From Spirochaetaceae bacterium (GTDB taxonomy: Bacteria; Spirochaetota; Spirochaetia; Treponematales; Treponemataceae), in contig JAGAAX010000055.1 of the NCBI GenBank assembly GCA_017614995.1, positions 1 to 52,508 of the forward strand: DNA of 52,508 nucleotides, written 5' to 3'. Shown here piece by piece: positions 35,990 through 52,508 of the stretch. Made by a program: the position numbers and the translations under genes. A model generated the notes under the pieces. It was not told where the DNA came from. It was given only the letters and a program-made list of their open reading frames with translations, and ran no database searches. The number at the start of each line of letters is the position of its first letter. Positions within the stretch are counted from its first letter, which is position 1.

Positions 35990-36562
35990 TTAAGTAATAA
36001 GGAATTTTATTAATTTTACAACCAGCGAAAGCAAAATTATCATTGCTATTATAAGATCAGGTCTTTTTATAAGATTAGTGAGTTTATGTTTTCTTAATGA
36101 ATCAATATTTTCTTGCTTTATAGGTTTTGATTTTAATAATTCCTTAATTTCAGAGAAATCGTTTATAAATTCATTGATTATTATATAGTTTCCTTTTATA
36201 TCAAAAACAGTTATCCGGTCTTTTTTTGAAAAATCTATTTTAGCAAGTTCATTTATCTTAAGTGTTTTTGTGAATCTTTTAGTTTTCTCGATGATTTCTG
36301 TTTCAGAAATTTCCAAAACGTATTGTTCATAATTTCTCTTGTGCATTTTTCCAACAATCAACAAGACAAGAATTGCAATAATTGCTGTTACAGAAAAAGA
36401 AAAATATAATATCCATTTAACATCTGAATATTCTTTTGAATCAAAGATATAATTTGCCATGAGAAAATAAATAGGCAATGCTATTAAAATTGGGATGCCC
36501 ATTGTCATATAATATTTCTTTATGAATTTACTTTTGCTTTCAATATTGTTTTTGTAAATCAC
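35990..36562 (-). CDS. Membrane protein with a YcxB-like C-terminal domain
   Basis: About 190 residues if the GTG at 36562 with GAGAGAGG upstream is used. Two hydrophobic helices near residues 20-65, then a YcxB-like (PH-type) domain (YVLEISETEIIEKTKRFTKT), and a final transmembrane stretch (LIIAMIILLSLVVKLIKFLI). The open frame goes on to 36721, but that part crosses tRNA-Gly and cannot be coding. Rich in Ile, Lys and Asn compared with neighbours. Function unknown. Confidence 0.6.
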   Translation of the reverse strand: MIYKNNIESKSKFIKKYYMTMGIPILIALPIYFLMANYIFDSKEYSDVKWILYFSFSVTAIIAILVLLIVGKMHKRNYEQYVLEISETEIIEKTKRFTKTLKINELAKIDFSKKDRITVFDIKGNYIIINEFINDFSEIKELLKSKPIKQENIDSLRKHKLTNLIKRPDLIIAMIILLSLVVKLIKFLIT

Positions 36563-36606
36563 TTTTGGTATTTCCTCTCTCTCAAGTTGGTGATGTGGCT
36601 TTGTTA

Positions 36607-36678
36607 AGCGGTTGACGGGAGTCGGACCCGCGTCTCGGGCTTGGGAAGCCCGGATAATAGCCGTTATATGACAACCGC
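36607..36678 (-). tRNA. tRNA-Gly(CCC)
   Basis: Acceptor stem GCGGUUG/CAACCGC, anticodon arm CGGGC-UUCCCAA-GCCCG with anticodon CCC, T-arm GGGUCCGACUCCC and discriminator U. CCA is not encoded. 72 nt. Confidence 0.9.
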
Positions 36679-36799
36679 AAAAAATCATATAGAACATATC
36701 AAAGACAGACACGAAATTCAACCGTTTTGTAAATAATTCGATTGACTTCGAGGCGTTTCAGAAATAAACTAGCGCATAACTAAACGGAGTTTCTTATAA

Positions 36800-37621
36800 A
36801 TGAAGAATAAATTGAAAGTTGTTTTGCTTGGCTTGCTTTTGTGCGTTTGCGCAAATGTTTTTGCGGCAGAACAAATCATGCTTGAAGGCAAGAACGAGTA
36901 CAATGGCATTTCTCAAAAATTTGTGTTTCAGCCGGAAGACGCGCAGTTCAAGCAGTATCAATATGCCATAGTTCATTTTGACGAAGCCGGAAAGCAGCGG
37001 AAAATCTCTTATTGCCTTTCAGAAGCGCTGCAAAAAGAATCTGGCTTTGAATATCAGGAAGAAATCTACGAAAACGGCGTTGTTACAGAATACAGGTGCA
37101 TTTTTTCTGACAAAGAATTTACCAAAAAAGGCATACGCTGCCAGATAGAAAAAGTTGACAGCGCAGACAAGCCTTATATGTACGGTTTTACTGACGGAGT
37201 TCATACAGCTTTTTTTCCGGCTGATTTTTTTATGATTCAGTACCCGTGCTACAACCTGAAGTATCTTTCTGCGCTGTTTTTTAGCGCCGAAGGAGCAAAG
37301 GGCAACCGCTACGTTTTCAGCAATAAACTCGCAAAAGGCGCAACTTTTGTTAAGATTGTCTCTGACGTTGAGCCGCTTTCAAATTATGATGCCGCGCATG
37401 TGATTAAGTTTTCTAATTTTGTGGGAAACGAACAGGTTCGCGAGATTTATAACTGCAAGGTGCGTGTTTCTGCCGCCGGAAAAGAATATACGGCGTATAT
37501 TCAGAAAAATTTTGCCGCCGGTCTCAAAAAGAATATGGGTTGTCTTTTAGCTTATTGCACAATGGGCTATAACGAGAATCTTTATTTGTTTGCAACCGCT
37601 TTTGTTGAAAACCAGAAATAA
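36800..37621 (+). CDS. Secreted protein of unknown function
   Basis: 273 residues with a signal peptide (VVLLGLLLCVCANVFAAE). The mature protein is rich in aromatic residues (FKQYQYAIVHFDEAGKQRK, ADFFMIQYPCYNLKYLSALF) and has five or six cysteines. No family recognised. GGAG lies 10 nt before the ATG. The next secreted protein follows after 7 nt, so the two are one operon. Confidence 0.7.
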   Translation: MKNKLKVVLLGLLLCVCANVFAAEQIMLEGKNEYNGISQKFVFQPEDAQFKQYQYAIVHFDEAGKQRKISYCLSEALQKESGFEYQEEIYENGVVTEYRCIFSDKEFTKKGIRCQIEKVDSADKPYMYGFTDGVHTAFFPADFFMIQYPCYNLKYLSALFFSAEGAKGNRYVFSNKLAKGATFVKIVSDVEPLSNYDAAHVIKFSNFVGNEQVREIYNCKVRVSAAGKEYTAYIQKNFAAGLKKNMGCLLAYCTMGYNENLYLFATAFVENQK

Positions 37622-37628
37622 TTAGAAA

Positions 37629-37985
37629 ATGAAGAAACTACGCAACTTTTTCTTTTTAGTTGTTGTCTTCTCAGTCTGCCTGCCTTGCGGAAGCGTTTCT
37701 GCGCCAAAGATTAACGCAGATGCTTCAATTTGTGCTTACGCAGATAATGCACCGGCTGCAGACTATTACGTTAATCAGACAAATGAAAGCCGCGCTTGTT
37801 TTGAAAATCTGAAAATTGAAGAAAAAACAGGCGTTTTTAAAAACACAATAGACTTTGCTTTTTCGGATATTCAAAAAAAGTTTCTGGCTGTATTTTACCC
37901 GCCTTATCTTTGCGCCTGTTCTTTAAGGTGCATAAATCTTTCAAAATTCAAGAAACTTACAATTTATTTTCAGACTGTTCTATAG
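37629..37985 (+). CDS. Small secreted protein of unknown function
   Basis: 118 residues with a signal peptide (FFFLVVVFSVCLPCGSVSA). The mature part has paired cysteines (PYLCACSLRCINLS) and no recognisable domain. Located 7 nt after the larger secreted protein with AGAAA in front, weak for a ribosome site; coupling is likely. Confidence 0.55.
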   Translation: MKKLRNFFFLVVVFSVCLPCGSVSAPKINADASICAYADNAPAADYYVNQTNESRACFENLKIEEKTGVFKNTIDFAFSDIQKKFLAVFYPPYLCACSLRCINLSKFKKLTIYFQTVL

Positions 37986-37989
37986 ATTT

Positions 37990-38024
37990 CTCCAAGTTTC
38001 CGCTTTTATCAAAAAACTTGGAGG
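37990..38024 (+). other. Hairpin that hides the ribosome site of the 23-aa ORF
   Basis: CTCCAAGTTT (37990-37999) pairs perfectly with AAACTTGGAG (38014-38023). The ribosome site GGAGG (38020-38024) lies in the 3' arm. No T-run follows, so it does not look like a terminator. Confidence 0.6.
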
Positions 38025-38031
38025 ATTACTC

Positions 38032-38103
38032 ATGTTATATACAATTATTGGGCTTGTTGCGTTTGCTATAATTGTGGCAATATGCGCCTATTTCTGGAGC
38101 TAA
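38032..38103 (+). CDS. 23-residue single-pass membrane peptide
   Basis: MLYTIIGLVAFAIIVAICAY followed by FWS: one hydrophobic helix over nearly the whole length. GGAGG sits 7 nt before the ATG. The ribosome site can be sealed by the perfect 10-bp hairpin just upstream. Small membrane peptides of this type can tune a larger membrane complex or act as type I toxin-like peptides; neither is shown. The stop overlaps the end of the convergent 2H-phosphoesterase gene by 4 nt. Confidence 0.55.
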   Translation: MLYTIIGLVAFAIIVAICAYFWS

Positions 38104-38684
38104 AATTCAAGCGTGGCGGCGGCGTTCCATCTGCCGCCGTTGCGCTCAAACACCGTTATGTTGTCAATCTGAAAATCTTCGACAAGGTTAAGCTCGTTAA
38201 AAGCCTGCAAAGCTTCGGTTGAAGCTCCCGCCGGAATGTCGCGGTTTGCTACGGTAAGGTGCGGCTGAAAAGGGCGTGTGTCTTTGCGCAAAGAGCCGGT
38301 TACTGCGCCAGAAACAGCAGAAAAAACCTTGTCGCGGAAATTTGTCCACTGCTTTGAGACTGAAACTTTGGCAAAAACCGTCCTGTCGCCGAATGCGTCA
38401 AAATTGTCGATGTGCGCTGTAAAGCCCGAAAATTCCGCAGAAGAAACAAGCTTTTGAACGGCGGCTGCGATGTCTTTTGTTGTGTAGGCTTCGTCTGAAC
38501 GGAAAGGCGGCACAAGTGTTATGTGAATGGGTGTGCCGTAGCCGCTTTTGCAGCCGTATTTCTGGTTCATGTAGCGGCGGCAGCTCTCAAGAGTTTCTGT
38601 AATGTCGTCCGGCACAAGCACGCCTATAAAATGCGTCTGCTGCGGAAAATTCTGATTTTGCGGAAAAAAGTTTCGGTGTTTCAT
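38100..38684 (-). CDS. 2'-5' RNA ligase / 2H phosphoesterase family protein
   Basis: 194 residues with both HxT motifs: HITLVPPF near residue 55 and HLTVANRD near residue 143. This is the LigT/ThpR fold, which opens cyclic phosphates or RNA 2'-5' linkages. Start at ATG 38684 (MKHRNFF); the frame is open further to 38762 but crosses the tRNA-Leu 3' end and terminator. No ribosome site is visible; translation may rely on a short leader starting after the terminator. Confidence 0.8.
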   Translation of the reverse strand: MKHRNFFPQNQNFPQQTHFIGVLVPDDITETLESCRRYMNQKYGCKSGYGTPIHITLVPPFRSDEAYTTKDIAAAVQKLVSSAEFSGFTAHIDNFDAFGDRTVFAKVSVSKQWTNFRDKVFSAVSGAVTGSLRKDTRPFQPHLTVANRDIPAGASTEALQAFNELNLVEDFQIDNITVFERNGGRWNAAATLEF

Positions 38685-38690
38685 GTCTAA

Positions 38691-38719
38691 TAAAAAAGGC
38701 TGCCTTTTTAGACAGCCTT
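38691..38719 (-). terminator. Terminator of the tRNA-Leu gene
   Basis: On the minus strand AAGGCTG-...-CAGCCTT followed by TTTTTATT, directly after the tRNA. Confidence 0.85.
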
Positions 38720-38721
38720 GA

Positions 38722-38804
38722 TACCGGCGATGAGACTTGAACTCATACACGGTCGCCCGCAATAGATTTTGAGTCTATCGTGTCTACCATTCCACCACGC
38801 CGGC
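38722..38804 (-). tRNA. tRNA-Leu(CAA)
   Basis: Acceptor GCCGGCG/CGCCGGU with discriminator A, anticodon loop CUCAAAA (anticodon CAA), long variable arm GCGGGCGACCGU typical of class II tRNA, T-arm GAGUUCAAGUCUC. 83 nt without CCA. Confidence 0.92.
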
Positions 38805-38866
38805 AAATAAATGATGATGAAATGTAACATATAGCAAAAAAAATTACAAGCCTAAATTGCAAATTT

Positions 38867-40198
38867 CTATTTAGTCAGCCGGCGGCATTCCATGTAGAAG
38901 CGTTTTTCGCTTGCTTCGCCCATAGAAAAGCTCTTGCGCGGAAGAACGCCGCACGAGGCGATTGTCTTAAAGAAATTGTCCTTTGAAATTTGCGGAAGCA
39001 GAATGCCGATTGTGTTTTCCTGTGCGCCAAGACGGAAAATCTCGTCGCTGCCATGGATAAAGTCAAGCTCTGCATCGCCAAAAATCGAAAGGAATGTGTC
39101 GAGAATCGGCTGAAAATAGCTTACCATCAAATCAGGGCAGATTGCGTCTATCATAACGTAGCGCTGCTCGCCTTTTTCGGTCTTGTAAACCATGCCGATG
39201 ACTTCCTGTGAAGATTTAACCTCTTCGTTGAGTTCTTCTGCCGATTTAAGGTGATAGACTGTAGCAGAAAGTTCTGCCGAAATATAGCGGATAAGCATTT
39301 CTGGCAGCGAACCGAACAAAACGCGGTGAATCGGCTCAAAAGTAAGACCGTCGTCGTAGATGTTTACAATTTCTACAAGCGCATATCTTAACGGGTGGTC
39401 TGTAACGCCCGGGTTTTTTGTCTTAAATTCGTTCCAGACGGCTTTTGCTGTTGCAAGCGAATGGTTTCCGTCGCCGACTGCGAAAAGCGGGGCGGCTGTG
39501 CCGTCAGTTTTGTCTACGCCGTTCTTTTCGGCAATTTTCAGAATGCTCTGGCTTATATGCTCAAAAATTGCCTCATCTTTGACAGCCCAGCCTGTAATGT
39601 GGCCTGATTTCAGCATTAAGTCTGTGTCGTAGACAACCGGTGCATTTGCGGCTTTTGCCTTTTTGCCGGTTTCTTCAACAAGCTGTTTGTCGCTGTCGCT
39701 TACAAGAAGCATGATGTGCGGGCTTTCAAGCGGTGCATCGCGTCTGATTTCCATTCTTGGCGGAATGCGCGATTCAATTGTCTGCTCTGTTGCGCGGATT
39801 TTTGTCTGTGAATATGGCTTCCATTCATAGGCTTCAAGGTCAACTGCTGTAACAAGTCCTTTGCGGATTCTGCCGTAAGCGGTTTTTCTTTCAAGATAAA
39901 CCATGCCGTTAAGCGGTTCGGCGAAAACACCCGAATCAAGATATTTCTGCATGGTGCTGTTTATGTCGGCAAGGCGTTCTTTTCTGTCGTTGTCTTCAAG
40001 ATAAACTTCTGGAAGAATGCAGTGCAGCATTGAAGGTTTGCCTGCGGCGGTGTCAGCCACGTCCTTCCAATACTGGCGGTTTTGCGTATATTGATCGCAG
40101 GCGATAACCGCCCACGCATTGAGGTCTGTTCCCTGTTTGGGAAGTAAAATCTCCGGCACAGCAATGCCGTATTTTGTGAATGTATCTTTGTAATTCAT
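38867..40198 (-). CDS. DUF1015 family protein
   Basis: 443 residues. DUF1015 signatures: LNAWAVIACDQYTQN, LVTAVDLEAYEW, FAVGDGNHSLATAKAVW and FIHGSDEIFRLGAQ. The invariant GDGNHS suggests a catalytic or nucleotide-binding site, with no agreed function; the family was noted near amino-acid metabolism genes in some bacteria. The ATG at 40198 is preceded at 6 nt by TATAGT, so the mRNA is probably leaderless; the extension to 40255 covers the promoter. Confidence 0.88.
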   Translation of the reverse strand: MNYKDTFTKYGIAVPEILLPKQGTDLNAWAVIACDQYTQNRQYWKDVADTAAGKPSMLHCILPEVYLEDNDRKERLADINSTMQKYLDSGVFAEPLNGMVYLERKTAYGRIRKGLVTAVDLEAYEWKPYSQTKIRATEQTIESRIPPRMEIRRDAPLESPHIMLLVSDSDKQLVEETGKKAKAANAPVVYDTDLMLKSGHITGWAVKDEAIFEHISQSILKIAEKNGVDKTDGTAAPLFAVGDGNHSLATAKAVWNEFKTKNPGVTDHPLRYALVEIVNIYDDGLTFEPIHRVLFGSLPEMLIRYISAELSATVYHLKSAEELNEEVKSSQEVIGMVYKTEKGEQRYVMIDAICPDLMVSYFQPILDTFLSIFGDAELDFIHGSDEIFRLGAQENTIGILLPQISKDNFFKTIASCGVLPRKSFSMGEASEKRFYMECRRLTK

Positions 40199-40204
40199 GC
40201 TTCC

Positions 40205-40210
40205 ACTATA
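40205..40210 (-). promoter_or_regulatory. -10 box 6 nt before the DUF1015 start codon
   Basis: On the minus strand TGTATAGT, then GGAAGC, then the ATG. The -35 region is weak. Confidence 0.4.
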
Positions 40211-40275
40211 CAGCAAAACCCGCGCTTTTGCTAGTGCACGCCATAAGCCGCACAAAACATAGAACTACAATTTTG

Positions 40276-40397
40276 CTTGGCGGAAATCCGTTCCATTGCG
40301 TCCGTCTCACTGCTCGCGTGGGATAATAGGTGGTTAGACTCGCTTTCGCTCGCTCCCACGAGGCAGTTCGCGTCCGCAAGTCACTACTTTCCGCCAG
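40276..40397 (-). repeat. Structured dispersed repeat B, copy 1
   Basis: On the minus strand: GGCGGAAAGTAGTGACTT, GCGGACGCGAACTGCCTC, GCGAGCAGT, GACGGACGCAATGGAACGG and ATTTCCGCCAAG. The outer arms GGCGGAAA/TTTCCGCC pair. The same blocks in the same order occur on the plus strand at 44932-45022, on the far side of rpoN. Copy 1 has a longer middle, containing CTCGCTTTCGCTCGCTC on the plus strand. No ORF. Confidence 0.7.
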
Positions 40398-40468
40398 AAA
40401 AATTCAATCTACAGCGGTGCGCCAGATTAAGCTCTATCTGTTGAACTAACACAAACGCGCACCCAATA
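40398..40468. other. Non-coding stretch before the rpoN promoter
   Basis: Contains a GGTGCGC/GCGCACC inverted pair (40425-40463) and a tRNA D-arm-like string on the minus strand (GTTCAACAGATAGAGC) without the rest of a tRNA. No gene is seen. Confidence 0.4.
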
Positions 40469-40497
40469 ATGACAAAACAGTAATTTGCTATTATACT
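40469..40497 (+). promoter_or_regulatory. Promoter of rpoN
   Basis: ATGACA (40469-40474), 17 bp, TATACT (40492-40497). The ribosome site CGGAG lies 8 nt before the ATG at 40515, so this unit has a short normal leader. Confidence 0.55.
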
Positions 40498-40514
40498 TTT
40501 TCGGAGTGTGCATT

Positions 40515-41906
40515 ATGAAGTCTAATCAAGAGCTGGTTCAAAGTCAGCGGCTGGCGTTAAAGCTTTCGCCGCAGATGATTCAATCAATAAATTTGCTGAC
40601 ACTGCCTGTATTTGAGCTGAGAGAGCGCATCTTGGACGAAGCCGAGAAAAACCCCGCCTTAGAGATTGTTTCAGATTCAGGGCTTGAAGCTTCTGACGAC
40701 ATGTACACAAATTCCGCTGAAACAAAATCTGGCGATGCTTCCAATTCGTTCCTTCAGTTTTTAGAAAACCAGCCCGCAAAAGAAGAAACCCTTCAGGAAC
40801 ATCTGCTTGCACAGCTTTTAGAAACCAACCTGCCGCCTGAAGACCGGCTGCTTGCCGAAAGCATAATCCAAAATCTTGACGAGCATGGCTTTCATTTTGT
40901 CGCGCCAGAATCGCTTTACGAGGAATTGTTCGGCGTAAAAAGCCTTGATGACGCGCAGAAAGCGCAGCTTGAGAGCGTTTTGAACATAATACGGAATTTT
41001 GACCCGCCGGGCACAGCTTTTGAAAACGCCTATCAGAGCCTGCTTTTTCAGGCTGAAAAAAAAGACGCGCCGCCCCTTGTAATGGAACTGCTCAAAAACC
41101 ATTTTGAAGAACTTTCTAATATGCGCGTCTCAACTTTTCAAAAGCGCTTTCCGTCTTATTCCGCACAAGAAATTTCAGACGCATTTGAGTTTATCAAAAC
41201 ATTAGAGCCTTTTCCTGCAAGAGAATTCGGCGGCGCAGACGTTCAGTTTATTGTGCCCGATGTTTACGTCTACAAAATTGACAGCGATTCGCCCGAAATT
41301 GACGACCATTTTGCCGTTATCTGCGAGGAAAAAGGGCTGCCCGTCTTAAAACTTTCGCCGCTTTTTCTCGACCTTGCAAAAAACAACGGCGGTGCGGCTT
41401 CAGAAGAATCTGATTTTGTAAACGGACAGCTCAAAGACGCAGAATGGTTCTTGAACGGACTTAGCCGCCGCAATCAGACTTTGGTAAAAGTCACAAGAGA
41501 AATTGTCCGCCGGCAGAAAGCCTTTTTTCTGGGCTTTGCGTCCGCGCCGTCAGCCCTGCGCATGAGCGAAATTGCCGCCGCCTTAGACATTCATGAGGCA
41601 ACCGTCTCGCGGATTACTTCGGGCAAATATCTTCAGTGCAGCGCAGGCATTTTTGCACTCCGCTATTTCTTTACAAACGCTGCCGTTTCTAAAACTGAAT
41701 CTACTAATGTCAATGCTTCAGTTTTTTCAAAAGAACAGGTTAAAGACCGAATAAAACAGCTCATCGAAGAAGCAGAACAAAACGGCAAAAAGCTTTCTGA
41801 CGAAAAAATCTCGAAAAAACTCGAAGAATTCGGCATGTCCGTAGCCCGCCGCACCGTCTCAAAATACCGCGCAGAACTAAATATACAGTCTAGCTATGAC
41901 AGGTAA
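40515..41906 (+). CDS. rpoN: RNA polymerase sigma-54 factor RpoN
   Basis: 463 residues. Region I begins QRLALKLSPQMIQSINLLTL, rich in Gln and Leu, and contacts activators. The core-binding domain follows, then the helix-turn-helix RMSEIAAALDIHEATVSRIT and the C-terminal RpoN box ARRTVSKYRAELNI, which reads the -24 element. Complete and of normal length. It needs an enhancer-binding protein, none of which is in this window. In related genomes I recall hpf, hprK and ptsH following rpoN closely; here 4.3 kb of repeats and accessory genes intervene. Confidence 0.95.
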   Translation: MKSNQELVQSQRLALKLSPQMIQSINLLTLPVFELRERILDEAEKNPALEIVSDSGLEASDDMYTNSAETKSGDASNSFLQFLENQPAKEETLQEHLLAQLLETNLPPEDRLLAESIIQNLDEHGFHFVAPESLYEELFGVKSLDDAQKAQLESVLNIIRNFDPPGTAFENAYQSLLFQAEKKDAPPLVMELLKNHFEELSNMRVSTFQKRFPSYSAQEISDAFEFIKTLEPFPAREFGGADVQFIVPDVYVYKIDSDSPEIDDHFAVICEEKGLPVLKLSPLFLDLAKNNGGAASEESDFVNGQLKDAEWFLNGLSRRNQTLVKVTREIVRRQKAFFLGFASAPSALRMSEIAAALDIHEATVSRITSGKYLQCSAGIFALRYFFTNAAVSKTESTNVNASVFSKEQVKDRIKQLIEEAEQNGKKLSDEKISKKLEEFGMSVARRTVSKYRAELNIQSSYDR

Positions 41907-42124
41907 AAGGGAAAGGGAAAACCCCTACTTCCGAGGCGCGGTTTTCCCTTCCCCTTAAACCCCTTCCTTTTCCGGCACGGTCTAAGGGCTCTGCCCTTAG
42001 GAATCCCGTTTGTACAAACATTATTGATGGAACTCCGCTTTTTGAGATTAACCTGGTCACTGAGCGTTGGTTGGTGAGCGTAGTCGAACCAAGTCGAAAT
42101 GACCAAGAAAGTGGGCTTTTGCAA
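41906..42124 (+). repeat. Structured dispersed repeat, copy 2
   Basis: Matches 28932-29147 over about 215 bp in the same orientation. The second hairpin differs on both arms in a compensating way (CTAAGGGC/GCCCTTAG here, CCAAAGGGC/GCCCTTTGG there). It begins in the last bases of rpoN. No ORF. Confidence 0.8.
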
Positions 42125-42234
42125 ATTCTGCCGGTTTTTGCTGATTGAGCTTTAGATGTAGATTTAATTGCTACGAAAAGAAGATTGCTTCGTCGCTACG
42201 CTCCTCGCAATGACGGAGCTACTGCGAAAAGAAG
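42125..42234 (+). repeat. Left flank of the accessory island: cassette-type repeat and REP motif
   Basis: CTGCCGGTTTTTG, an ATTGAGCTTTA block and GTAGATTTAATTGCTACGAAAAGAAG, truncated here to 42158-42183, resemble 45251-45333. A REP-like motif AGATTGCTTCGTCGC...CGCAATGACGG (42182-42216) and a second fragment CTACTGCGAAAAGAAG (to 42234) follow. Confidence 0.65.
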
Positions 42235-42264
42235 TTTACTGTTTTCTGAAAATTATGGTATAAT
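42235..42264 (+). promoter_or_regulatory. Promoter of the variable lipoprotein gene
   Basis: TTTACT (42235-42240), 18 bp, extended -10 TGGTATAAT (hexamer 42259-42264). The start site near 42271 precedes a CAGGGA ribosome site and the ATG at 42297. Confidence 0.65.
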
Positions 42265-42346
42265 TCACCTTACACATAAACAGGGATTTTTCAAGCATGA
42301 CTTTAAAGGTACTTGACAGACATGAAATGCGCCTCACACTTTTTAA

Positions 42347-42395
42347 GCAACAAGCAACAAGCAACAAGCAACAAGCAACAAGCAACAAGCAACAA
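42347..42395 (+). repeat. Heptanucleotide tandem repeat (GCAACAA)x7
   Basis: Seven perfect copies of GCAACAA in 49 bp, between the candidate start codons (42297, 42322, 42327) and the signal peptide of the lipoprotein. Since 7 is not a multiple of 3, every copy gained or lost changes the reading frame. With seven copies, frames from all three ATGs end at TAG (42397) or TAA (42402). Confidence 0.95.
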
Positions 42396-42400
42396 ATAGC

Positions 42401-44761
42401 ATAAAAAGACTTTTTATAGCAATAACCGCCATTATTCTGGCTTTAAGCCTTACCTCTTGCGGAGGAGGAGGCGGTGGCGGCGGTGCTGTCTCATTTCAGG
42501 GCAGTGGCGCGCAGTACCACAACGGCGGTGATGCCAGCGGCTGGGGTACAGGCAACCAGACCGGCAACGGCTTTGACCCGCAAGGCCAAAGCATAGAAGA
42601 ATCAGAAGCCGGCCTGCTTATAAGCCAGATGGCCGCGCTTTCAGGCATAACAGGCATAACGATTGAGCTTACGATAAACGGCACGCCTTATCCTGCAATC
42701 AATGCAGATGAAACAACAACCACGGCAGTGCTGCCAAAGATAAAAGCCGGAGACAAAATTTCAGGCAAAGCCACAATAAACCTATCTAACGGAGACCCGC
42801 GCGTAGCATATCTAGACGAAACAGAAGCAGCGCTGCACGGCGTGCTGAAATTCAAAGTTCCTTACACTTACACAGCAAATAACTTGGCCGGCCAACCAGT
42901 GGCAAGCGGCACATATTATGCGCGCGACGGCATCAACCTTTCGACAGCTACAACATCAGACATTGCAGGCTGGCAGTGCGCAGAAGACGGCTCTGTGCAT
43001 TACGGCAGCTACGTTACCGGCGTGCGCGGCGACATTACGCTAAACGCCGTGTCTGCCAGTGGCGCACCAGTCTTGAACGCAAGCGCAAGCCCGGAAATTC
43101 TTTATGCAACAGCAACAAGCGGTGACACAACAACGATAACCATAACAGGCGTAACAGGCTCACCTCAAGTTAGCTCTATTTCTAATGAATTAGAGCAGCA
43201 AGGTGCGATTGTGCCGGACAATGCTTCGAATCCGACATCATATACACTGACTGTAAAAATTAAAGACGATCCAACAAGCACAATGGGTGACCCTATCTGG
43301 TTTAATGACGATACCACTGCAAACGTAACCATAACAGATGACAGCGGTGCTATAAAATCAGTGCCGCTGACGCTAAAGAACAAATATACATTTACAGTAG
43401 CAGATGCAAGCAACAGCCCATACCCGCAAGGTGATAAAGATCAAGGAACATCGTATTCTTTTGATGATTTAAAGGGCATAATACCTGCATCAGCTATTCC
43501 GGCAGGGCGCGAAGTAGTAGCGTTTGAAGAGGGTACCCGTATTTTTAAAGAAAGCGATTCCCCTATAACGTTAGGCAGTTCAACCTTCACCCAGAGACTT
43601 GTCAGATTAAAGGCAGTGCTTGACTTTACGTGCTCACTCTCTGACGGCGGATACGGAACAACGGCAAGCCCTCTCAGCTCTCAAACCGGAACTTCTACGA
43701 ATCCGTATCTGCTGAATTATTATGGAACAACTACAGAAAGGAAAATTCAGATTGAGATAAACGATTATGCATGCGGTAGCGGAGATTTGACCTTAGAGAT
43801 AGATCAAACGCAGCCAAATATAGCTAATATAAATAATGCTGATATGTTTGATCCTATAAGTCAAACAGGTAATCATTTCCTTCTAAAGCTTAAAGATGAT
43901 CTTGCAAAAAATAGTGTGTATATCAATCTGATAAAGCTGATTGCTACAGACCCGACCACAGGCGCAACAAAAGATGTTTATATAAAGGTAGTGAAAGTCG
44001 GAATCGGCAATAAAGACACCCCTGATGCGGTAGGCGATATCGTATTCACCGACGGCACGGCAATGGCTTATACAGCGTTTAACAATCTTGCTCCTGCTGA
44101 AAAAACTACAAAGGCTGCCGCCGCAATTGCAGTTATTTTCTATGCTGGTGGCAATGCAAAACTGGGCGGCAGAGTGCTTGGTTTGGGAATCAACAGCTAT
44201 AATGGAACTAATTATCAGGGAACTCAAAATGACGCTTCTGCCAAGGGCTATTTGGCTTATATTGAAGGTTTAAAAAGTGAACCGCACTGGAACGGACAGG
44301 CAAGCTCTATTGATGATTTTATCAGCTTGATTAACGGCGATGTAGACGGCAGTGATAATCTTTCAGTTATGTCCTCATATTTTAATACTACAGGAAAGAC
44401 TGATGATAGCGAAATTGCTGGTAAATATACTGCATTCCAATGGCCAAAGAATATTTATCCGGGAACAAGATCAAATTTAACAGGTACTGCATATACAACC
44501 GGCTGGTATCTGCCGACTCTGCCTGAAATGCTGATGATTTATAAAAACAAAGCCACTGTTGAAACGGCTTTGGCTGCCTGTGGTTCTGGTGTAACCTCTA
44601 CGATTCCTGGTGGAGAATACTGGACTTTCAGTGCATCAACTTGTGATTCTTCTAATCACAGTGGAAATTCTTTGACACTTTTGAATATGACAACAGGAAA
44701 CCCAGACTGGGACGATGGCTGGGCTGGCAAAAAGATACTCGCCATTCGCCGCTTTAACTAG
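42401..44761 (+). CDS. Surface lipoprotein with FGE/C-type-lectin-like C-terminus, out of frame with its starts
   Basis: 786 codons from the signal peptide on (IKRLFIAITAIILALSLTSC, lipobox LTSC) followed by a run of eight Gly. Residues 100-450 look like repeated beta-rich domains (TYYARDGINLST; YATATSGDTTTITITGV). From about residue 560 the chain reads GDIVFTDGTAMAYTAF and ends GWYLPTLPEMLMIYKNK...YWTFSAS...GKKILAIRRFN, the layout of the C-type-lectin/FGE-like targets of diversity-generating retroelements, as in T. denticola TvpA (from memory). No ATG, GTG or TTG lies in this frame between TAA (42344) and the lipobox, so translation needs a frame change in the upstream heptamer tract. The ATG at 42629 is internal, lacks the signal and is unlikely as start. 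No reverse transcriptase or template repeat is in the window. Confidence 0.75.
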   Translation: MKRLFIAITAIILALSLTSCGGGGGGGGAVSFQGSGAQYHNGGDASGWGTGNQTGNGFDPQGQSIEESEAGLLISQMAALSGITGITIELTINGTPYPAINADETTTTAVLPKIKAGDKISGKATINLSNGDPRVAYLDETEAALHGVLKFKVPYTYTANNLAGQPVASGTYYARDGINLSTATTSDIAGWQCAEDGSVHYGSYVTGVRGDITLNAVSASGAPVLNASASPEILYATATSGDTTTITITGVTGSPQVSSISNELEQQGAIVPDNASNPTSYTLTVKIKDDPTSTMGDPIWFNDDTTANVTITDDSGAIKSVPLTLKNKYTFTVADASNSPYPQGDKDQGTSYSFDDLKGIIPASAIPAGREVVAFEEGTRIFKESDSPITLGSSTFTQRLVRLKAVLDFTCSLSDGGYGTTASPLSSQTGTSTNPYLLNYYGTTTERKIQIEINDYACGSGDLTLEIDQTQPNIANINNADMFDPISQTGNHFLLKLKDDLAKNSVYINLIKLIATDPTTGATKDVYIKVVKVGIGNKDTPDAVGDIVFTDGTAMAYTAFNNLAPAEKTTKAAAAIAVIFYAGGNAKLGGRVLGLGINSYNGTNYQGTQNDASAKGYLAYIEGLKSEPHWNGQASSIDDFISLINGDVDGSDNLSVMSSYFNTTGKTDDSEIAGKYTAFQWPKNIYPGTRSNLTGTAYTTGWYLPTLPEMLMIYKNKATVETALAACGSGVTSTIPGGEYWTFSASTCDSSNHSGNSLTLLNMTTGNPDWDDGWAGKKILAIRRFN

Positions 44762-45250
44762 TTGTGTATGGCTTATGCACAGGGGCGCGAGGGTGTCGGA
44801 GTGCGCGTTTCGGGTTTGCGATTGGGCTTGTTCTATGGAATAAGCTGAATTGGCAAACCCTGCAAGTTTTGCTAACGCAAAACTGGTAACTGATGCACAA
44901 CGGGCTGCTTGGTTGGAGATGGTGTACATGGGCGGCGGAAAGCAGTGACTTGTGGACGCGGACTGCCTCATGGCTTTGCCATGCGAGCAGTCCGACGGAC
45001 GCAAAGGAACGGATTTCCGCAAGATATGTACATGAGCACGCATTGGGTGCTCTTTATGTTGAAATAAACCGGAGCTGTATCGTTCCGGCTTAAATACAAC
45101 AAACCGGCACATGCCGGAAATTGCCAAAGGAGGGAGCGTTTTGCAAGGGCCTAATCTACAGTTGGGGTTTTATCTGGCAAAACGCCAAGTTTCCGCTTTC
45201 GCGTAAACTTGTAACGGGTGCACAACGTTCCGTTTTGGCTGGTGCACATA
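44762..45250 (+). other. Non-coding, hairpin-rich stretch after the lipoprotein gene
   Basis: About 490 bp without a credible gene. It contains two related units: AGTTTTGCTAACGCAAAACT, GTAACTGATGCACAACG and GGTGTACAT (44863-44929), and AAGTTT...AAACTT, GTAACGGGTGCACAACG and GGTGCACAT (45186-45249). Repeat B copy 2 lies between them, as do GCGTTTTGC/GCAAAACGC arms (45138-45185) and a CCGGCACATGCCGG palindrome. Confidence 0.6.
44932..45022 (+). repeat. Structured dispersed repeat B, copy 2
   Basis: Shares with the minus strand of 40276-40397 the ordered blocks GCGGAAAG, AGTGACTTG, GGACGCG, ACTGCCTC, GCGAGCAGT, GACGGACGCAA, GGAACGGATTTCCGC. The middle is a perfect local hairpin here (ATGGC/GCCAT within GGACTGC...GCAGTCC). 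Confidence 0.7.
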
Positions 45251-45333
45251 GACTGCCGGTTTTTGTGTAAGCAAAAAGCGGCACTTTTCGCCAATTGAAC
45301 TTTATTCGTAGATTAAGCTACTGCGAAAAGAAG
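45251..45333 (+). repeat. Cassette-type repeat at the broken gene edge
   Basis: CTGCCGGTTTTTG, an inserted hairpin (TTTTTGTGTAAGCAAAAA), CAATTGAACTTTATTC, then GTAGATTAAGCTACTGCGAAAAGAAG (45308-45333). The last 26 bp recur at 46060-46083 and in altered form at 42158-42183. The DUF4469 remnant starts right at its end. Confidence 0.7.
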
Positions 45334-45924
45334 CGCGGCTCATCGCTCACAGAAGCCGACATAGCCGCGTACCAGAAACTGGAGAGAGAAGTAATCAAAG
45401 ACATCATCGCAAACGGCGGCCAGCTCAATACGCCGATAATCAATACTTCTTTCAGCATCTCAGGCGTGTTCACAAGCCAGACAGACGGCTTCGACAAGAG
45501 CCGCCATGCCGTAAAGCTCAACGTAACAGCCGGAACAGCCCTGCGCGAGGCACTGACAAAAGTCTCCGTGCAGAAAGTTGAGGCGTCTTCGACCGACCCG
45601 TACATCACAAGCGTTACAGACAAAGTTTCAGGCGACACCACCACAATCCGCACCGGCTCCGTCATGGAAATAACCGGCAGCCGCCTGAAATTTGACGCCG
45701 CCGACACCGAGCAGGGCGTATTCGCCGTAACCGCGTCAGGCGAGTTCAGATGTGCAACCGTAATCGAGAACAAACCCGCAAGGCTTATGGTGCTGCTCTC
45801 CCCAGAAGTTCCCGCCGGAGACTTTACGCTTGAAGTGAGAACGAAAATTACAAGCAACAAAAACTCTGGAAAAACGCTCAAACGCAGTTCGTACAACAGG
45901 GTACTTTCTGCTGTAAAAGACTAA
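45331..45924 (+). pseudogene. 5'-truncated DNA-binding/DUF4469 (Ig-like) protein gene
   Basis: About 197 codons. From RGSSLTEADIAAYQKLEREV the sequence matches the second half of the HU-like DNA-binding domain and then the complete DUF4469 Ig-like domain (DPYITSVTDKVSG; TGSRLKFDAADTEQGVFAV; LEVRTKITSNKNSGKTLK), ending in a normal stop. Intact members of this family, known from Bacteroidota and Treponema, are roughly 50-80 residues longer at the N-terminus. The missing part is replaced by the GTAGATTAAG... repeat. The only in-frame start upstream is a TTG at 45295 with no ribosome site, so the gene is probably dead. Confidence 0.72.
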
Positions 45925-45943
45925 AAAGTTAAAGACATGAAAT

Positions 45944-46053
45944 GGCACATTATAATGTGCCAGTGTAGCACAGCATAATGTGCCGGTGTGGCACAGCATA
46001 GTGTGCTAGAGTGGCACAGCATAATATGACGATGAAGCACACTATGCTGTGCT
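45944..46053. repeat. Five palindromes of GCACAGCATAATGTGC type at exact 23-bp spacing
   Basis: GCACA begins at 45945, 45968, 45991, 46014 and 46037, and each is the left half of a 16-bp near-palindrome (GCACATTATAATGTGC, GCACAGCATAATGTGC, GCACAGCATAGTGTGC, GCACAGCATAATATGA, GCACACTATGCTGTGC). The last is the reverse-complement form of the third. Seven-bp linkers separate them. No reading frame. Confidence 0.85.
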
Positions 46054-46059
46054 TTATTT

Positions 46060-46083
46060 GTAGATTAAGCTGCTGCGAAAAGA
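46060..46083 (+). repeat. Third copy of the GTAGATTAAG cassette repeat
   Basis: GTAGATTAAGCTGCTGCGAA and four more bases, one mismatch to 45308-45333. With that copy it brackets the DUF4469 remnant and the palindrome array as direct repeats. Confidence 0.7.
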
Positions 46084-46238
46084 GTGAATCTGCCTGAAAG
46101 TTGTAAGACTGTAAAAACATCAATTTTACAATTAGTTTAGGTTGCAAAATATGATTCTTCATTTATACTAGTAAAGTAAGTTTTTCTTGAAGCGTTTGCT
46201 TAAGAAAGCTTGATGATGTGCTTTATTAGGAGGTTTAC

Positions 46239-46526
46239 ATGAATGTAACATTGAGCGCCGTAGGTTTTGATTTTCAGCAAGAGCAGCAGGACTTGATTAA
46301 CAAGAAACTTGAAAGAATCAATTATGCTGACGATTTGATTGTGGATCTTCTTGTCCGTGTAAAAGACGATAAAAAAATCATTTTTGATGTTACTGCCAAT
46401 TTCCGCTGGGGTGCTTCTGCCCATGTTTCTGCAGAAGACTACGATTTTGGTGCGGCATTGAACAAGACAATGGATATTCTTGATACAAAGGTCAAGAAAG
46501 AAAAAGATAAAATCCAGAAGAAATAG
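46239..46526 (+). CDS. hpf: Ribosome hibernation promoting factor (Hpf/RaiA family)
   Basis: 95 residues, short form without the C-terminal dimerisation domain. MNVTLSAVGFDFQQEQQDLI and ILDTKVKKEKDKIQKK match the first strand-helix and last helix of the S30AE fold; the basic end contacts 16S rRNA. It stalls ribosomes in stationary phase. AGGAGG lies 6 nt before the ATG. Followed by a terminator, so it is uncoupled from hprK. Confidence 0.88.
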   Translation: MNVTLSAVGFDFQQEQQDLINKKLERINYADDLIVDLLVRVKDDKKIIFDVTANFRWGASAHVSAEDYDFGAALNKTMDILDTKVKKEKDKIQKK

Positions 46527-46547
46527 CGTTTTTCTTCCATAAAAAAA

Positions 46548-46614
46548 TGAAAAGCCGGTGTCGAAAGTGCAGCCCAAAACCGGGCGTCATTCCGATTACC
46601 GGCTTTTTTGTTTT
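46548..46614 (+). terminator. Rho-independent terminator after hpf
   Basis: AAAAGCCGGT (46548-46557) pairs with ACCGGCTTTT (46598-46607) and TTGTTTT follows. The loop holds a second small hairpin, GCCC-AAAACC-GGGC. Confidence 0.8.
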
Positions 46615-46643
46615 ATCAATGTAATACGTCTAACCTTTTGTGA

Positions 46644-46672
46644 TTGCAAATTCTCTTTTGAGCGTGTATATT
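46644..46672 (+). promoter_or_regulatory. Promoter of hprK, leaderless type
   Basis: TTGCAA (46644-46649), 17 bp, TATATT (46667-46672). The ATG at 46680 is 7 nt downstream without a Shine-Dalgarno site. Confidence 0.6.
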
Positions 46673-46679
46673 CGTATGT

Positions 46680-47669
46680 ATGGCTGAGAAGCGTTTTACC
46701 GTTTTGGATTTGCTCGATTTAGACTTAAAAGGACATAACTCTCTTAATCTTCATTGTGTTTGCGGACGCAGAGGTTTGACACGTGAACTTACAGTTCCAG
46801 AAATCAACCGTCCTGGTCTTGCGCTTTCGGGCTTTTTTGAATCTTTCGGTGCGCAGCGTGTTCAGCTTTTAGGGCGCGGTGAAGTCGCCTACCTTGCAAA
46901 GCTTATTGCAGAGAACAATCTTCAGACATTGACGCAGCTTTTTTCTTATGAGATTCCATGCTGTATTTTTACGCACAATCTTGCACCAGACCCACATGTA
47001 ATTGAACTTGCAGAAGAAGCAGGCTGTGCCATTCTTCAGACAGATTTGTCTTCAACTGAATTTTCGAGCAGGCTTTTGCGCGTATTCTCGAACATTTTTG
47101 CGCAGCACAAAACCATGCATGGTGTTCTTGTTGAAGTTTACGGTCTCGGCATTCTGATAATGGGCGATTCTGGTGTCGGCAAAAGCGAGACGGCTTTGGA
47201 GCTTGTTGAGCGCGGTCACCGTCTTGTTGCCGACGACATTGTAGAAATCCGCTGTGTAAACGGAAACACCATTCTTGGTCAGGGCGCAAACCGCGTAATA
47301 AGCCACCACATGGAAATCCGAGGTCTCGGCATTATCAATATTTCGCAGCTTTACGGCATCGGCGCAATCCGCGAGCAGAAAGAAGTTCAGCTTGTCGTAA
47401 AGCTTGAGGAATGGAACTCTGCGAAAGTTTATGACCGCCTTGGAACACAGCAGCTTTCTATGGATTTGCTCGGCGTTAAAGTTCCGCTTCTTGAAATTCC
47501 GGTTAAACCGGGACGGAATGTTCCAATTATTATTGAAACAGCAGCAATGAACGAGCGTCTTAAGGCTATGGGCTATTTTTCTGCTCGTGAATTTAATCAA
47601 AATGTATTAAAATGGATTGAGACGGACGCAGCTCAAGCTGCTTATTACGGCAGTGATGATTCTTATTAA
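46680..47669 (+). CDS. hprK: HPr kinase/phosphorylase
   Basis: 329 residues. The C-terminal kinase domain has the P-loop GDSGVGKSE near residue 162 and the HprK signature EIRGLGIINISQLYG near residue 211; the N-terminal domain (residues 1-130) is the usual regulatory part. The enzyme phosphorylates Ser46 of HPr with ATP or PPi and reverses it. ptsH follows after 18 nt, so kinase and substrate are co-transcribed. Spirochaetes often keep these with few PTS transporters, suggesting a regulatory role. Confidence 0.95.
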   Translation: MAEKRFTVLDLLDLDLKGHNSLNLHCVCGRRGLTRELTVPEINRPGLALSGFFESFGAQRVQLLGRGEVAYLAKLIAENNLQTLTQLFSYEIPCCIFTHNLAPDPHVIELAEEAGCAILQTDLSSTEFSSRLLRVFSNIFAQHKTMHGVLVEVYGLGILIMGDSGVGKSETALELVERGHRLVADDIVEIRCVNGNTILGQGANRVISHHMEIRGLGIINISQLYGIGAIREQKEVQLVVKLEEWNSAKVYDRLGTQQLSMDLLGVKVPLLEIPVKPGRNVPIIIETAAMNERLKAMGYFSAREFNQNVLKWIETDAAQAAYYGSDDSY

Positions 47670-47687
47670 TATCGGGGATTTATAACT

Positions 47688-47954
47688 ATGGTTGAAAAAC
47701 TAGTTACAGTACAAAACAGAGCGGGCATACACGCCCGGCCGGCCGCACTTATTGCACAGACTGCAAACAAATTTGCTTCTGAAGTGCTTATTGAAAAAGA
47801 TTCAGTAACTATTAATGCTAAGTCAATCATGGGTGTAATCACGATGGCTGCCTGCTATCAGACTGTGCTCACTGTGCGCGCTACCGGCTCAGACGAAGAA
47901 GCCGCCGTTGCTGCAATTCAGGCTTTGTTTGAAAACAAATTCGAAGAAGACTAA
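47688..47954 (+). CDS. ptsH: HPr phosphocarrier protein
   Basis: 88 residues. NRAGIHARPAALIA contains the active-site His, and NAKSIMGVITMA contains the regulatory Ser for HprK. Both key residues are present, so the protein can take part in PTS transfer and in Ser phosphorylation. Ribosome site GGGGATTTATAACT before the ATG is weak; coupling to hprK is likely. Confidence 0.95.
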   Translation: MVEKLVTVQNRAGIHARPAALIAQTANKFASEVLIEKDSVTINAKSIMGVITMAACYQTVLTVRATGSDEEAAVAAIQALFENKFEED

Positions 47955-48049
47955 CTGGAATAAATATCAGCGTTCCGCAGTATGCCGCTCAATAAATTGA
48001 ATAATCTCATTCGGACTTTTCTTTTTTTGAAAAATTATATGGTTTTGTC

Positions 48050-48085
48050 TTGTAAGTTAGAAAAATTATTATATACTAATGTATA
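48050..48085 (+). promoter_or_regulatory. lexA promoter with candidate self-binding palindrome
   Basis: TTGTAA (48050-48055), 16 bp, TATACT (48072-48077). The perfect palindrome TATAC-TAAT-GTATA (48072-48085) covers the -10 box and start site, just before the ATG at 48089. It is a plausible LexA box. Confidence 0.5.
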
Positions 48086-48088
48086 GAT

Positions 48089-48703
48089 ATGAAAGCTTTA
48101 ACAGAATGTCAGCAAGAATCACTGCGTTATATCCGCGATTATACTTTAGAAAATTCCCGTCCGCCGACGATACGCGAAGTTGCAGACCATTTTGGTGTTA
48201 CGGTAAAGGCGGCTCAAGACCGCATAACAGCCCTGCGCAAAAAGCAGTTTCTTGCACCAAGCGACAACTGCTCAAGATCGCTTCGCGTTCTTATTGATAT
48301 AGACGAAAAAGAAAAGGAAAATTCTGAAATGGTGTCTGTGCCGCTGCTTGGAACTATTGCAGTCGGCAAGCCTTTAATTTGTGCTGATAACACAGAAGGT
48401 CGAATTTTTGTTCCAAGTTCTTTTTTGCGGAAAGATTCAGAATATTTTGCCTTAACCGTAAAAGGCGAGAGCATGAGTCAGGCGGGCATTCTCGACGGCG
48501 ATACAGCTTTGATACAGCAGTGTGAGACGGCTGAAGACGGTGAAATTATAGTTGTGCTGCTTGATGATACGATAACGCTAAAGCGCTATTTTAAAGAGCC
48601 GTCGCGCATTCGGCTTCAGTCTGAAAACCCCGATTTTAAGCCTATTTTCTGTCAGGATGTGCGCATTTTGGGCAGACTTTCTACTATAATTAGGATTTAC
48701 TGA
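48089..48703 (+). CDS. lexA: LexA repressor
   Basis: 204 residues. The N-terminal winged helix (PTIREVADHFGVTVKAAQDRI) is followed by a linker and the S24 peptidase domain. Catalytic Ser in KGESMSQAGI and Lys in ITLKRYFKE are present. The usual Ala-Gly self-cleavage site is GTIAVGKPL here, so the scissile bond would be Val-Gly. It represses DNA-damage genes until RecA triggers self-cleavage. Its TGA overlaps the holA ATG. Confidence 0.9.
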   Translation: MKALTECQQESLRYIRDYTLENSRPPTIREVADHFGVTVKAAQDRITALRKKQFLAPSDNCSRSLRVLIDIDEKEKENSEMVSVPLLGTIAVGKPLICADNTEGRIFVPSSFLRKDSEYFALTVKGESMSQAGILDGDTALIQQCETAEDGEIIVVLLDDTITLKRYFKEPSRIRLQSENPDFKPIFCQDVRILGRLSTIIRIY

Positions 48704-49719
48704 TGGCTGCACCGCTTTATCTTTTTACAGGCCCCGAAGCAGGCGAACGAAGTGATGCTGTAAATGAGCTTCTTAAGGCATACGAAAAAAAACTTGGCAG
48801 CATTGACGTGCACCGCTTTTATGCGGCAGAAACAAGTATTGCTGATTTTATTTCCCTGCTGATGAACGGCTCGCTTTTTGCTTCTTTTAGATTTGTTGTT
48901 TTAAATAATGCTGAAGCTGTAAAAAAGAAAGAGGATATAGAGCTTATTTCAGAATGGCTCGCCTCTAACGACGGAAATTCTGCACTGGTTCTGCTTTCTG
49001 ATGAAATTTCAGTTGAAAAGAAACTTGAAAACCTTGTGCCAAAAGAGAACAAAAAAATCTTCTGGGAACTTTTTCAGGACAAAAAAGAATCGTGGGTGCG
49101 CTCGCTTTTTCAGCGCAACGGTTTCCGTATAACAGATGATGCAATTGAAGCCATTCTTGAGCTTTGCGAGAACGATACTGCTTCTTTAAAACGCGAATGT
49201 GAGCGCTTTTTTGTCTGCTTTGAAAAAGACCATGTAATATCTGCCGAGGATGTCGAGAATCTGCTCTCGCATAACCGCGAAGAAAATGCCTTTACTCTGT
49301 TTGACGCAATGACAGAGCAGTGTCCGCCGGCAGAGCGGCTTGAAAATTCGCTTGATATTCTTCAGAAAATCAGATTGTCTAAAGAATCGGACTCTATAAA
49401 AATAATTGCAGGCTTAACTTACAGTTATAGAAAACTTTTGACGTGGATTTCGCTTGCCGAGAACGGCGTTTACGATAATTTTCAGCTTAAAATCAAAGGT
49501 TTTGGCAGCAAAAAGATGCAGGACGAATACCGCCGTGCCGCCCGTTTGTGGAACAAAGACGACACTGCACAAATTCTTGCACTGCTTGCAAAGACAGATA
49601 TTTCGCTGCGTTCAGGCGGCGCTGCCTTTGAGGACACGCTTTTGCAGATGCTGGTCTATTCGATAGTCGTCAAGAACGGCGCGCCTGTAGAAGCTTACGA
49701 GGATTCGTTTGCTTTTTAG
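48703..49719 (+). CDS. holA: DNA polymerase III delta subunit HolA
   Basis: 338 residues. LYLFTGPEAGERSDAVNELL opens the RecA-like domain I, and FRFVVLNNAEAVKKKEDIEL follows; GLTYSYRKLLTW and FGSKKMQDEYRRAARLW in the C-terminal collar domain fit HolA. The delta subunit opens the sliding clamp. Overlaps lexA by 1 nt, so damage regulation may reach holA (inference). Confidence 0.85.
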   Translation: MAAPLYLFTGPEAGERSDAVNELLKAYEKKLGSIDVHRFYAAETSIADFISLLMNGSLFASFRFVVLNNAEAVKKKEDIELISEWLASNDGNSALVLLSDEISVEKKLENLVPKENKKIFWELFQDKKESWVRSLFQRNGFRITDDAIEAILELCENDTASLKRECERFFVCFEKDHVISAEDVENLLSHNREENAFTLFDAMTEQCPPAERLENSLDILQKIRLSKESDSIKIIAGLTYSYRKLLTWISLAENGVYDNFQLKIKGFGSKKMQDEYRRAARLWNKDDTAQILALLAKTDISLRSGGAAFEDTLLQMLVYSIVVKNGAPVEAYEDSFAF

Positions 49720-49745
49720 CGCGCGTTTCTGCGGTTCTGCCGTTT

Positions 49746-49970
49746 TTACAGCTCGAGCTTGTTGAGCAAATCTCTTAGAGCAGTTATTTCTTCTTTTGTC
49801 ATTGTTACGCCTTTGCCCATTTTCTGATGGTCAGGCGACCAGCTTCTTATGTCATATTTTGCAGGCCTGTCGCCCCAAGAAACTGTGTTCAGCTCAGTTT
49901 TCCAGCCTGCTTTTGATTCAGAAAGAACACCGAATGAGTCAATAATTTTAAATGAAAAATCGTCAGCCAT
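49746..49970 (-). CDS. PC4/YdbC-type single-strand nucleic acid binding protein
   Basis: 74 residues. FGVLSESKAGWKTELNTVSW, then KYDIRSWSPDH and KMGKGVTMTKEE match the YdbC/PC4 family, small ssDNA/RNA-binding proteins. Whole-length match. Convergent with holA. Confidence 0.88.
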   Translation of the reverse strand: MADDFSFKIIDSFGVLSESKAGWKTELNTVSWGDRPAKYDIRSWSPDHQKMGKGVTMTKEEITALRDLLNKLEL

Positions 49971-50044
49971 TTTTAACCGCCTTTTTTACGGAATTTATAC
50001 AGCAATTATAGCATATTCTGTTTATTTTTGTGAAAAAACGAAAA

Positions 50045-50620
50045 TTAAAGCGTTATATTTTTGGCAAATTTCTGAAGATAAAGAAGCAGGGCTGTGCTTG
50101 TAAGTGCGTGTTTGTACTGGCCATGTCCCATTTTTTTGAAGGTTTCTTCAACCGGCTCGATGATGCAGTTTACATATTCGTCTTTATCAAGGTTTTGTGA
50201 GCCTGTGTTTGTTAAATTTTCAGCTGCATAAAAATGAATGTTGTTGTGCATAATTGCCGGGTTTGGGTTTACTGTGCCTAAATGCGTAAGTTTTTGCGCC
50301 GAATAGCCTGTCTCTTCAAGAAGCTCGCGTGCCGCGCCTTTTTCAGGCTCTTCGCCGTCGTTGATTCCTCCGCCGGGAAACTCTATACTGAGGCATTTTG
50401 CGCCATGCCGCCATTGTTTTACTAGCACAAAATATTTTTTTCCGTCTTTTTCAAGTACGGGAACTGTCATAACCCAGTCTCTTGTTTCAAGAACTATATA
50501 ATCTCCGCATTTGTTTTCTGGTGAAATGCTGTGCGTTTGTGTTACGTCGAAAATACGCGTTTTGAGTAAAACTTTTTGTTCTTTTTCTTGCCAAATCAGA
50601 TGTTCATCTTCAGTGTGCAT
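50045..50620 (-). CDS. Nudix hydrolase
   Basis: 191 residues. The Nudix box is complete: G-x5-E-x7-RELLEETGY within GGGINDGEEPEKGAARELLE. The flanks (FVLVKQWRHGAKCLSIEFPG) resemble ADP-ribose pyrophosphatases, so ADP-ribose or a similar sugar nucleotide is the likely substrate. AAAAGGAAAA precedes the ATG. Confidence 0.88.
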   Translation of the reverse strand: MHTEDEHLIWQEKEQKVLLKTRIFDVTQTHSISPENKCGDYIVLETRDWVMTVPVLEKDGKKYFVLVKQWRHGAKCLSIEFPGGGINDGEEPEKGAARELLEETGYSAQKLTHLGTVNPNPAIMHNNIHFYAAENLTNTGSQNLDKDEYVNCIIEPVEETFKKMGHGQYKHALTSTALLLYLQKFAKNITL

Positions 50621-51591: not shown

Positions 51592-51644
51592 GCTTTTGAC
51601 GGCGCATTGTCCGGTGCGCCGCGGCTTAAAACCAAACTTTTTGC

Positions 51645-51673: not shown

Positions 51674-51679
51674 GGTTGT

Positions 51680-52507: not shown

Positions 52508-52508
52508 A

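Follow-up and report, generated by a model that had tools for sequence, protein, structure and literature searches.

The tpr genes of Treponema pallidum undergo phase variation by homopolymeric G tracts, and at licA of Haemophilus influenzae several ATGs in different frames allow more than two expression states. The repertoire of simple sequence repeats (SSRs) of T. pallidum has been mentioned in general terms (PMC11868660). At the tetranucleotide loci of H. influenzae, SSRs located in 5' coding regions bring about phase variation by frameshift, while heptanucleotide repeats of the same organism lie in the promoters of hmw1A and hmw2A and tune the level of transcript (PMC2651432). A third arrangement was established experimentally by Danne et al. 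at the pil1 locus of Streptococcus gallolyticus, where a repeat controls attenuation through a leader peptide (pil1/pil3; PMC3894217).

The locus described here lies in a window of 52,508 nt, i.e., the whole stretch of DNA that was analysed (contig C32 of a draft genome of the Treponemataceae), and shares some traits with each of these systems. As at the tetranucleotide loci of H. influenzae, a perfect short repeat follows soon after a start, the copy number modulo 3 is expected to decide between a full protein and an early stop, and the output would be a surface structure; as at licA, several ATGs occupy different frames and more than two states are predicted. It differs from the H. influenzae loci in its seven-base GCAACAA/GCAACAG unit, in an array that stands ahead of the signal peptide, and in a module that is common to unrelated lipoproteins and to several treponeme genera. 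Since the array precedes the signal peptide, the ON product would carry a long polar N-terminal extension, removable by signal peptidase II. With hmw1A and hmw2A the window shares heptanucleotide repeats upstream of a surface protein, but the hmw repeats reside in the promoter whereas those of the window reside in the reading frame. Finally, T. pallidum and the window belong to one bacterial family and have in common SSR-based variation of surface proteins, by G tracts in the former and, as predicted, by heptamers in the latter; we know of no leader-array module in T. pallidum. In our literature search, which covered a minority of subscription journals, we came across no account of treponeme contingency loci built on heptamers.

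The initial annotation of this DNA had drawn attention to seven perfect GCAACAA copies, and both a sequence check and TRF (7.3 copies, 100% match) confirm them. The array is the sole perfect short-unit array of such length in the 52,508-nt window; simple arithmetic indicates that chance alone should not produce a perfect 7 x 7 bp array in a genome of 3 Mb. Its unit is not a multiple of three, and it sits inside the 5' translated region, between the ATGs and the signal peptide (Table 1). The three ATGs of that annotation (42297, 42322 and 42327, in frames 0, 1 and 0, respectively) and its two stops were found again, and the leader peptide, MTLKVLDRHEMRLTLF-, continues into the array. The lipoprotein occupies frame 2, which is closed upstream by a TAA (42344-42346) abutting the array, and the first ATG, GTG or TTG past the array in this frame occurs at 42629, well beyond the lipobox cysteine; the signal-peptide frame thus has no start of its own, as had been claimed. 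The frame table likewise agrees with the arithmetic put forward earlier, according to which eight copies join the lipoprotein to ATG 42297/42327, six to ATG 42322 and seven to none, and it carries the series further: the lipoprotein is in frame with ATG 42297/42327 at 5, 8 and 11 copies, with ATG 42322 at 6, 9 and 12, and with neither start at 7 and 10.

Table 1. Features of the lipoprotein locus, in window coordinates
Feature	Position	Strand	Remarks
P1, sigma-70-type promoter	42235..42264	+	TTTACT-N18-TATAAT with extended TG; proposed to drive the leader; 10/12 matches
AGGGA	42282..42286	+	Likely Shine-Dalgarno sequence for ATG 42297, 10 nt spacing; similar AGGA at the matching position in L009
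Leader coding start	42297..42346	+	ATG 42297 and in-frame ATG 42327; ATG 42322 in another frame; from frame analysis
P2-like pair	42313..42340	+	TTGACA (42313-42318), N16, CACACT (42335-42340); TTGACA conserved
GCAACAA array	42347..42395	+	7 perfect copies; proposed switch element; encodes (ATSNKQQ)n in any frame
Wrong-frame stops	42397..42404	+	TAG 42397 (frame 1) and TAA 42402 (frame 0), 1 and 6 nt past the array
Lipoprotein frame without own start	42401..44761	+	(I)KRLFIAITAIILALSLTSC followed by GGGG...; lipobox LTSC, Cys codon 42458-42460

From 42407 the lipoprotein ORF extends over 784 sense codons to a TAG (44759-44761) with no internal stop. Read directly, the sequence IAITAIILALSLTSC, followed by G, conforms to the lipobox rule [LVI][ASTVI][GAS]C after a hydrophobic signal, so that the intact lipoprotein signal LALSLTSC proposed earlier is borne out, with its Cys codon at 42458. 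The source genome alone contains thirteen matches to this protein. Its closest ortholog (G007, 78% identity) has an ordinary start and a different signal peptide and is devoid of the array; dN/dS against this ortholog is about 0.45, which, together with the intact 784-codon frame, argues against a dead gene. The array-free paralogs of the same and sister genomes whose starts were inspected begin with an ATG, GTG or TTG right at the signal peptide, and a ribosome site typically accompanies it. Because these paralogs and the G007 ortholog keep ordinary starts, loss of the private start tracks possession of the array. No PDB relative of the lipoprotein was found by sequence, and the match of its C-terminus to the Lcl_C (C-type-lectin-like) domain PF07603 reaches 13.6 bits, below the Pfam cut-off of 34.9. 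As the C-terminus faintly recalls a C-type-lectin fold, a diversity-generating retroelement was considered; it was rejected, since positions 36000-52508 hold no long near-identical repeat of the lipoprotein 3' end and the lectin match is below the cut-off. The search of Rfam for other RNA elements returned two matches, both sub-threshold and both on the opposite strand.

A search for GCAACAA and near variants revealed that the design recurs within the source genome. The pattern search located a second GCAACAA array on contig C24 (L009), again of seven copies, with a promoter-like TGTGATATAAT, a ribosome site, an ATG exactly 50 nt ahead of the array (the same distance as in the window) and a startless lipoprotein signal in another frame. 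The protein of L009 is of the BspA-type LRR class (LRR_5-type), akin to the window protein only in its signal and glycine tract. The mismatch-tolerant search added a third locus on contig C19 (L174), where a leader ATG reads into four GCAACAG copies and an LRR_5-type lipoprotein follows in another frame, its signal peptide again startless. With the copy numbers of the assembly, none of the three leaders shares the frame of its lipoprotein. In the sister species Spiro_07 (G001), two arrays stand ahead of homologous startless signal peptides, one of nine copies (C33) and one of at least seven (C64, whose contig starts within the array); the signal-peptide DNA is much alike across the three homologous loci. 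Two observations from this set are counted against a frameshift model: the triplet of Spiro_07 C33 that matches ATG 42297 is ATA, the second ATG alone being conserved, and the four scorable fusion loci all have assembled copy numbers that put no canonical start in frame with the lipoprotein. We also dropped one apparent regularity, namely that the codon after the array is always one step from ATG (ATA, ATA, CTG), because L174 has TTA.

Three or more GCAACAA copies occur in 8/274 Treponemataceae genomes, among them T. vincentii OMZ 806 (G043; NZ_CP050497.1), against 0/274 for the reversed control pattern. GCAACAA or GCAACAG arrays were found in three further genera of the family, and finished relatives carry 7-19 copies. 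The genome G045 (2,843,201 bp), which is probably T. denticola ATCC 35405, bears three arrays of 11, 14 and 19 copies. An array also precedes a 5'-nucleotidase-like gene (MLMKNSKFFKA...) in three related genomes, with 7, 12 and 14 copies; the upstream flanks are 95-97% identical, the loci are apparently orthologous and all three frame classes are covered. Copy number at this array varies between species. In a 120-genome sample of the phylum, the module had no match outside Treponemataceae.

The arrays fall into two layouts. In the window genus (g1) the leader is fused to the lipoprotein, whereas in g14, g15 and g17 the array lies within a leader ORF with a P1-like promoter near its ATG. Eight loci of the latter, attenuator-type layout were considered (L050, L052-L057 and L182, from g14, g15 and g17 genomes). 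The distance from ATG to array is 109, 115 or 118 nt at seven g14/g15 loci; all these distances are congruent to 1 modulo 3 and therefore support coding. An intrinsic terminator (dG -12 to -21) is found between the array and the lipoprotein or HU/DUF4469 gene at 7/8 of these loci, none being detected after the array of L057. Each of the eight has one or more frames that close no further than 15 nt past the array and another that stays open for 88-408 nt, either beyond the terminator or as far as the next start. In the assemblies the leader takes the short frame at five loci and a long frame at the three G045 loci. It is worth recalling that pil1/pil3 of S. gallolyticus likewise combine an array in a short leader ORF, an intrinsic terminator and surface-protein genes, and that in both organisms the frame decides whether the leader stops short of the terminator or passes through it, the treponeme loci being known from sequence alone. 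We consider the eight loci to be candidate phase-variable attenuators like S. gallolyticus pil1. The window itself departs from S. gallolyticus in a leader fused directly to the lipoprotein and in a repeat of 7 bp that is not GCAGA, and no intrinsic terminator was found on the + strand between its array and the lipoprotein.

At all four fusion loci, two wrong-frame stops occur 1-21 nt past the array, nearer than expected by chance. The null consisted of codon shuffles for fusion loci and Markov sequences for attenuator loci. For stop proximity, P is 0.014 in the window (codon-shuffle null) and 0.012 to 0.088 per locus, and Fisher's combination over six lineages gives about 3e-5, values that we read as supportive only because the statistic was chosen post hoc and the lineages may share ancestry.

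The promoter search returned two sites in the region against 0.5 expected. The good promoter that had been noted upstream of the array stands as P1, and the conserved element reaches further upstream than that annotation had it, to a -35 box at 42235; in related loci, too, the leader ATG has a P1-like site ahead of it. In addition, a combined pattern search detected, at 12 loci belonging to four genera, a TTGACA that lies 27-28 nt upstream of a GCARCAR array (the window, L009, L024, L174, L182, L050 and L052-L057). All 12 conform to TTGACA-N16/17-YAYAMT, and the pair ends 5-7 nt ahead of the first repeat, a spacing that would place the predicted +1 at the array. In the window the -10 of this P2-like pair is weak (3/6 matches) and the promoter search did not list the pair. 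No other feature of these loci is as unusual as this conserved pair, whose predicted +1 coincides with the array; the pair falls outside the frameshift model and is counted against it. A contig scan for TTGACA plus two copies gave, among the hits listed, T. vincentii and Spiro_07, the others being scattered unrelated taxa and one Treponema MAG; such scattered hits are as expected for so short a pattern.

In our judgment, classical SSR phase variation by translational frameshift offers the best explanation of the window locus, and quite probably the correct one. The initial annotation had proposed phase variation, and the proposal is now supported by a design found at three loci, by startless lipoproteins whose array-free paralogs have starts, and by copy numbers that vary among relatives. 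P1 would drive the mRNA, and the leader would begin at ATG 42297, served by AGGGA, with ATG 42322 as a weaker alternative; ribosomes would cross the array into the signal peptide only when the copy number aligns both frames. As 7 leaves a remainder of 1 on division by 3, every unit gained or lost through slipped-strand mispairing would move the locus one step along a cycle of three states. Three states are expected since the two starts occupy different frames: the strong start may share the frame of the lipoprotein, the weaker start may do so, or neither may. Where neither does, ribosomes would halt no more than a few codons past the array and the lipoprotein would not be made, which is the state predicted for the assembled seven copies. 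Slippage would presumably take place within the population and the protein would be displayed at the surface from the proposed starts; it is tempting to suppose an adaptive role in antigenic or adhesive bet-hedging. That the window locus is OFF is not established: the assembly is a draft (64 contigs, 3.05 Mb) in which copy number is unreliable for arrays near read or k-mer length, and the OFF call is not to be trusted because it rests on that number.

It is indeed possible, if rather unlikely, that seven is a collapsed value, the true array being longer or heterogeneous and the OFF call wrong. Both GCAACAA arrays show exactly seven copies in the 64-contig draft, one sister contig begins in its array, another locus has Ns within a heptamer array, and the copy numbers of finished relatives range from 7 to 19. 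There is nevertheless no doubt that an array with clean flanks is present, and finished genomes contain similar ones; only the copy number and the OFF call are therefore at risk, and such a partial assembly artefact is compatible with phase variation. Action of the array on transcription or on the mRNA 5' end seems improbable to us. TTGACA-N16/17-YAYAMT would then be a working promoter whose transcript starts at the first repeat, and the copy number would make an unstructured 5' end longer or shorter, in the manner of the rheostat at hmw of H. influenzae. This would account for a TTGACA held at 27 or 28 nt and a YAYAMT held 16-17 nt further on at 12 loci while the leader around them has diverged. 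Yet an RNA starting in the array could not yield the lipoprotein because no start codon lies between array and lipobox; furthermore, the window -10 is the weakest of the set and escaped the promoter search, and a separate P1 with a leader ATG is present.

Could translation simply start after the array, the latter being incidental? ATA 42401 occupies the conventional start position, its product would have a normal signal peptide (xKRLFIAITAII...), and the matching codon is ATA in L025 and CTG in L024, but it is TTA in L174, and a Shine-Dalgarno sequence is impossible inside a GCAACAA array. Given also the canonical starts kept by array-free paralogs and the wrong-frame stops close to the array, we judge a non-canonical start very improbable. 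We attach an even smaller probability to a decayed gene, invaded by the array, deprived of its start and permanently silent. The lack of ON-frame assembled alleles in the genus and the apparent 5' truncation of the neighbouring HU/DUF4469 gene would fit such a pseudogene, against which stand the 784 stop-free codons, a dN/dS below 1 and the recurrence of the design at three loci with intact ORFs.

Beyond the frameshift reading of the window, we suggest tentatively, with a little less than even confidence, that P1, the leader ORF, TTGACA/-10 and a GCAACAR array at the predicted +1 may constitute a transferable Treponemataceae module that has come to stand before surface-protein genes of unrelated types in four genera or more. 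It would operate in two modes, direct frameshift fusion in the window genus and repeat-controlled attenuation via an intrinsic terminator in oral and other treponemes, and its internal promoter might serve a second function, for instance the synthesis of a repeat RNA. If the reading of these arrays as contingency loci is right, repeat number would govern the switching of BspA-like and related surface lipoproteins in several treponemes, including T. vincentii and probably T. denticola, heterogeneity from cell to cell and from strain to strain would be predicted, and repeat-controlled attenuation would be found in a second lineage, far from streptococci.

Some further arrays and the neighbourhood of the locus deserve mention. 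L051 (G040:C1:2589122-2589212, g14) comprises thirteen GCAACAA copies, with neither TTGACA at 28 nt nor an obvious downstream target. In Spiro_07 (G001:C17, L175, 1898-4312, - strand), a TCAACAA array, with 7 and 8 copies flanking a run of N, is read in frame within a PTPS_related membrane protein of 804 aa, whose gene is a further candidate for phase variation. In the window, an rpoN-like gene (40485-41906) lies upstream of the lipoprotein locus. The HU-DNA_bdg and DUF4469 gene (45295-45924) appears to have had its N-terminus replaced by a dispersed repeat; its intact relatives begin with MLKYCLREN... and adjoin arrays in other treponemes. A dispersed repeat, ...GATTAAGCTACTGCGAAAAGAAG, of about 35-40 bp, occurs in the window at 42150-42232, 45300-45331 and 46052-46083, and more than 12 partial copies of it are present in the genome, often close to lipoprotein genes. 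A tandem 23-bp repeat, TGGCACAGCATAATGTGCCAGTG, made of palindromic units (45943-46057), separates the HU gene from a ribosome-hibernation-factor-like gene.
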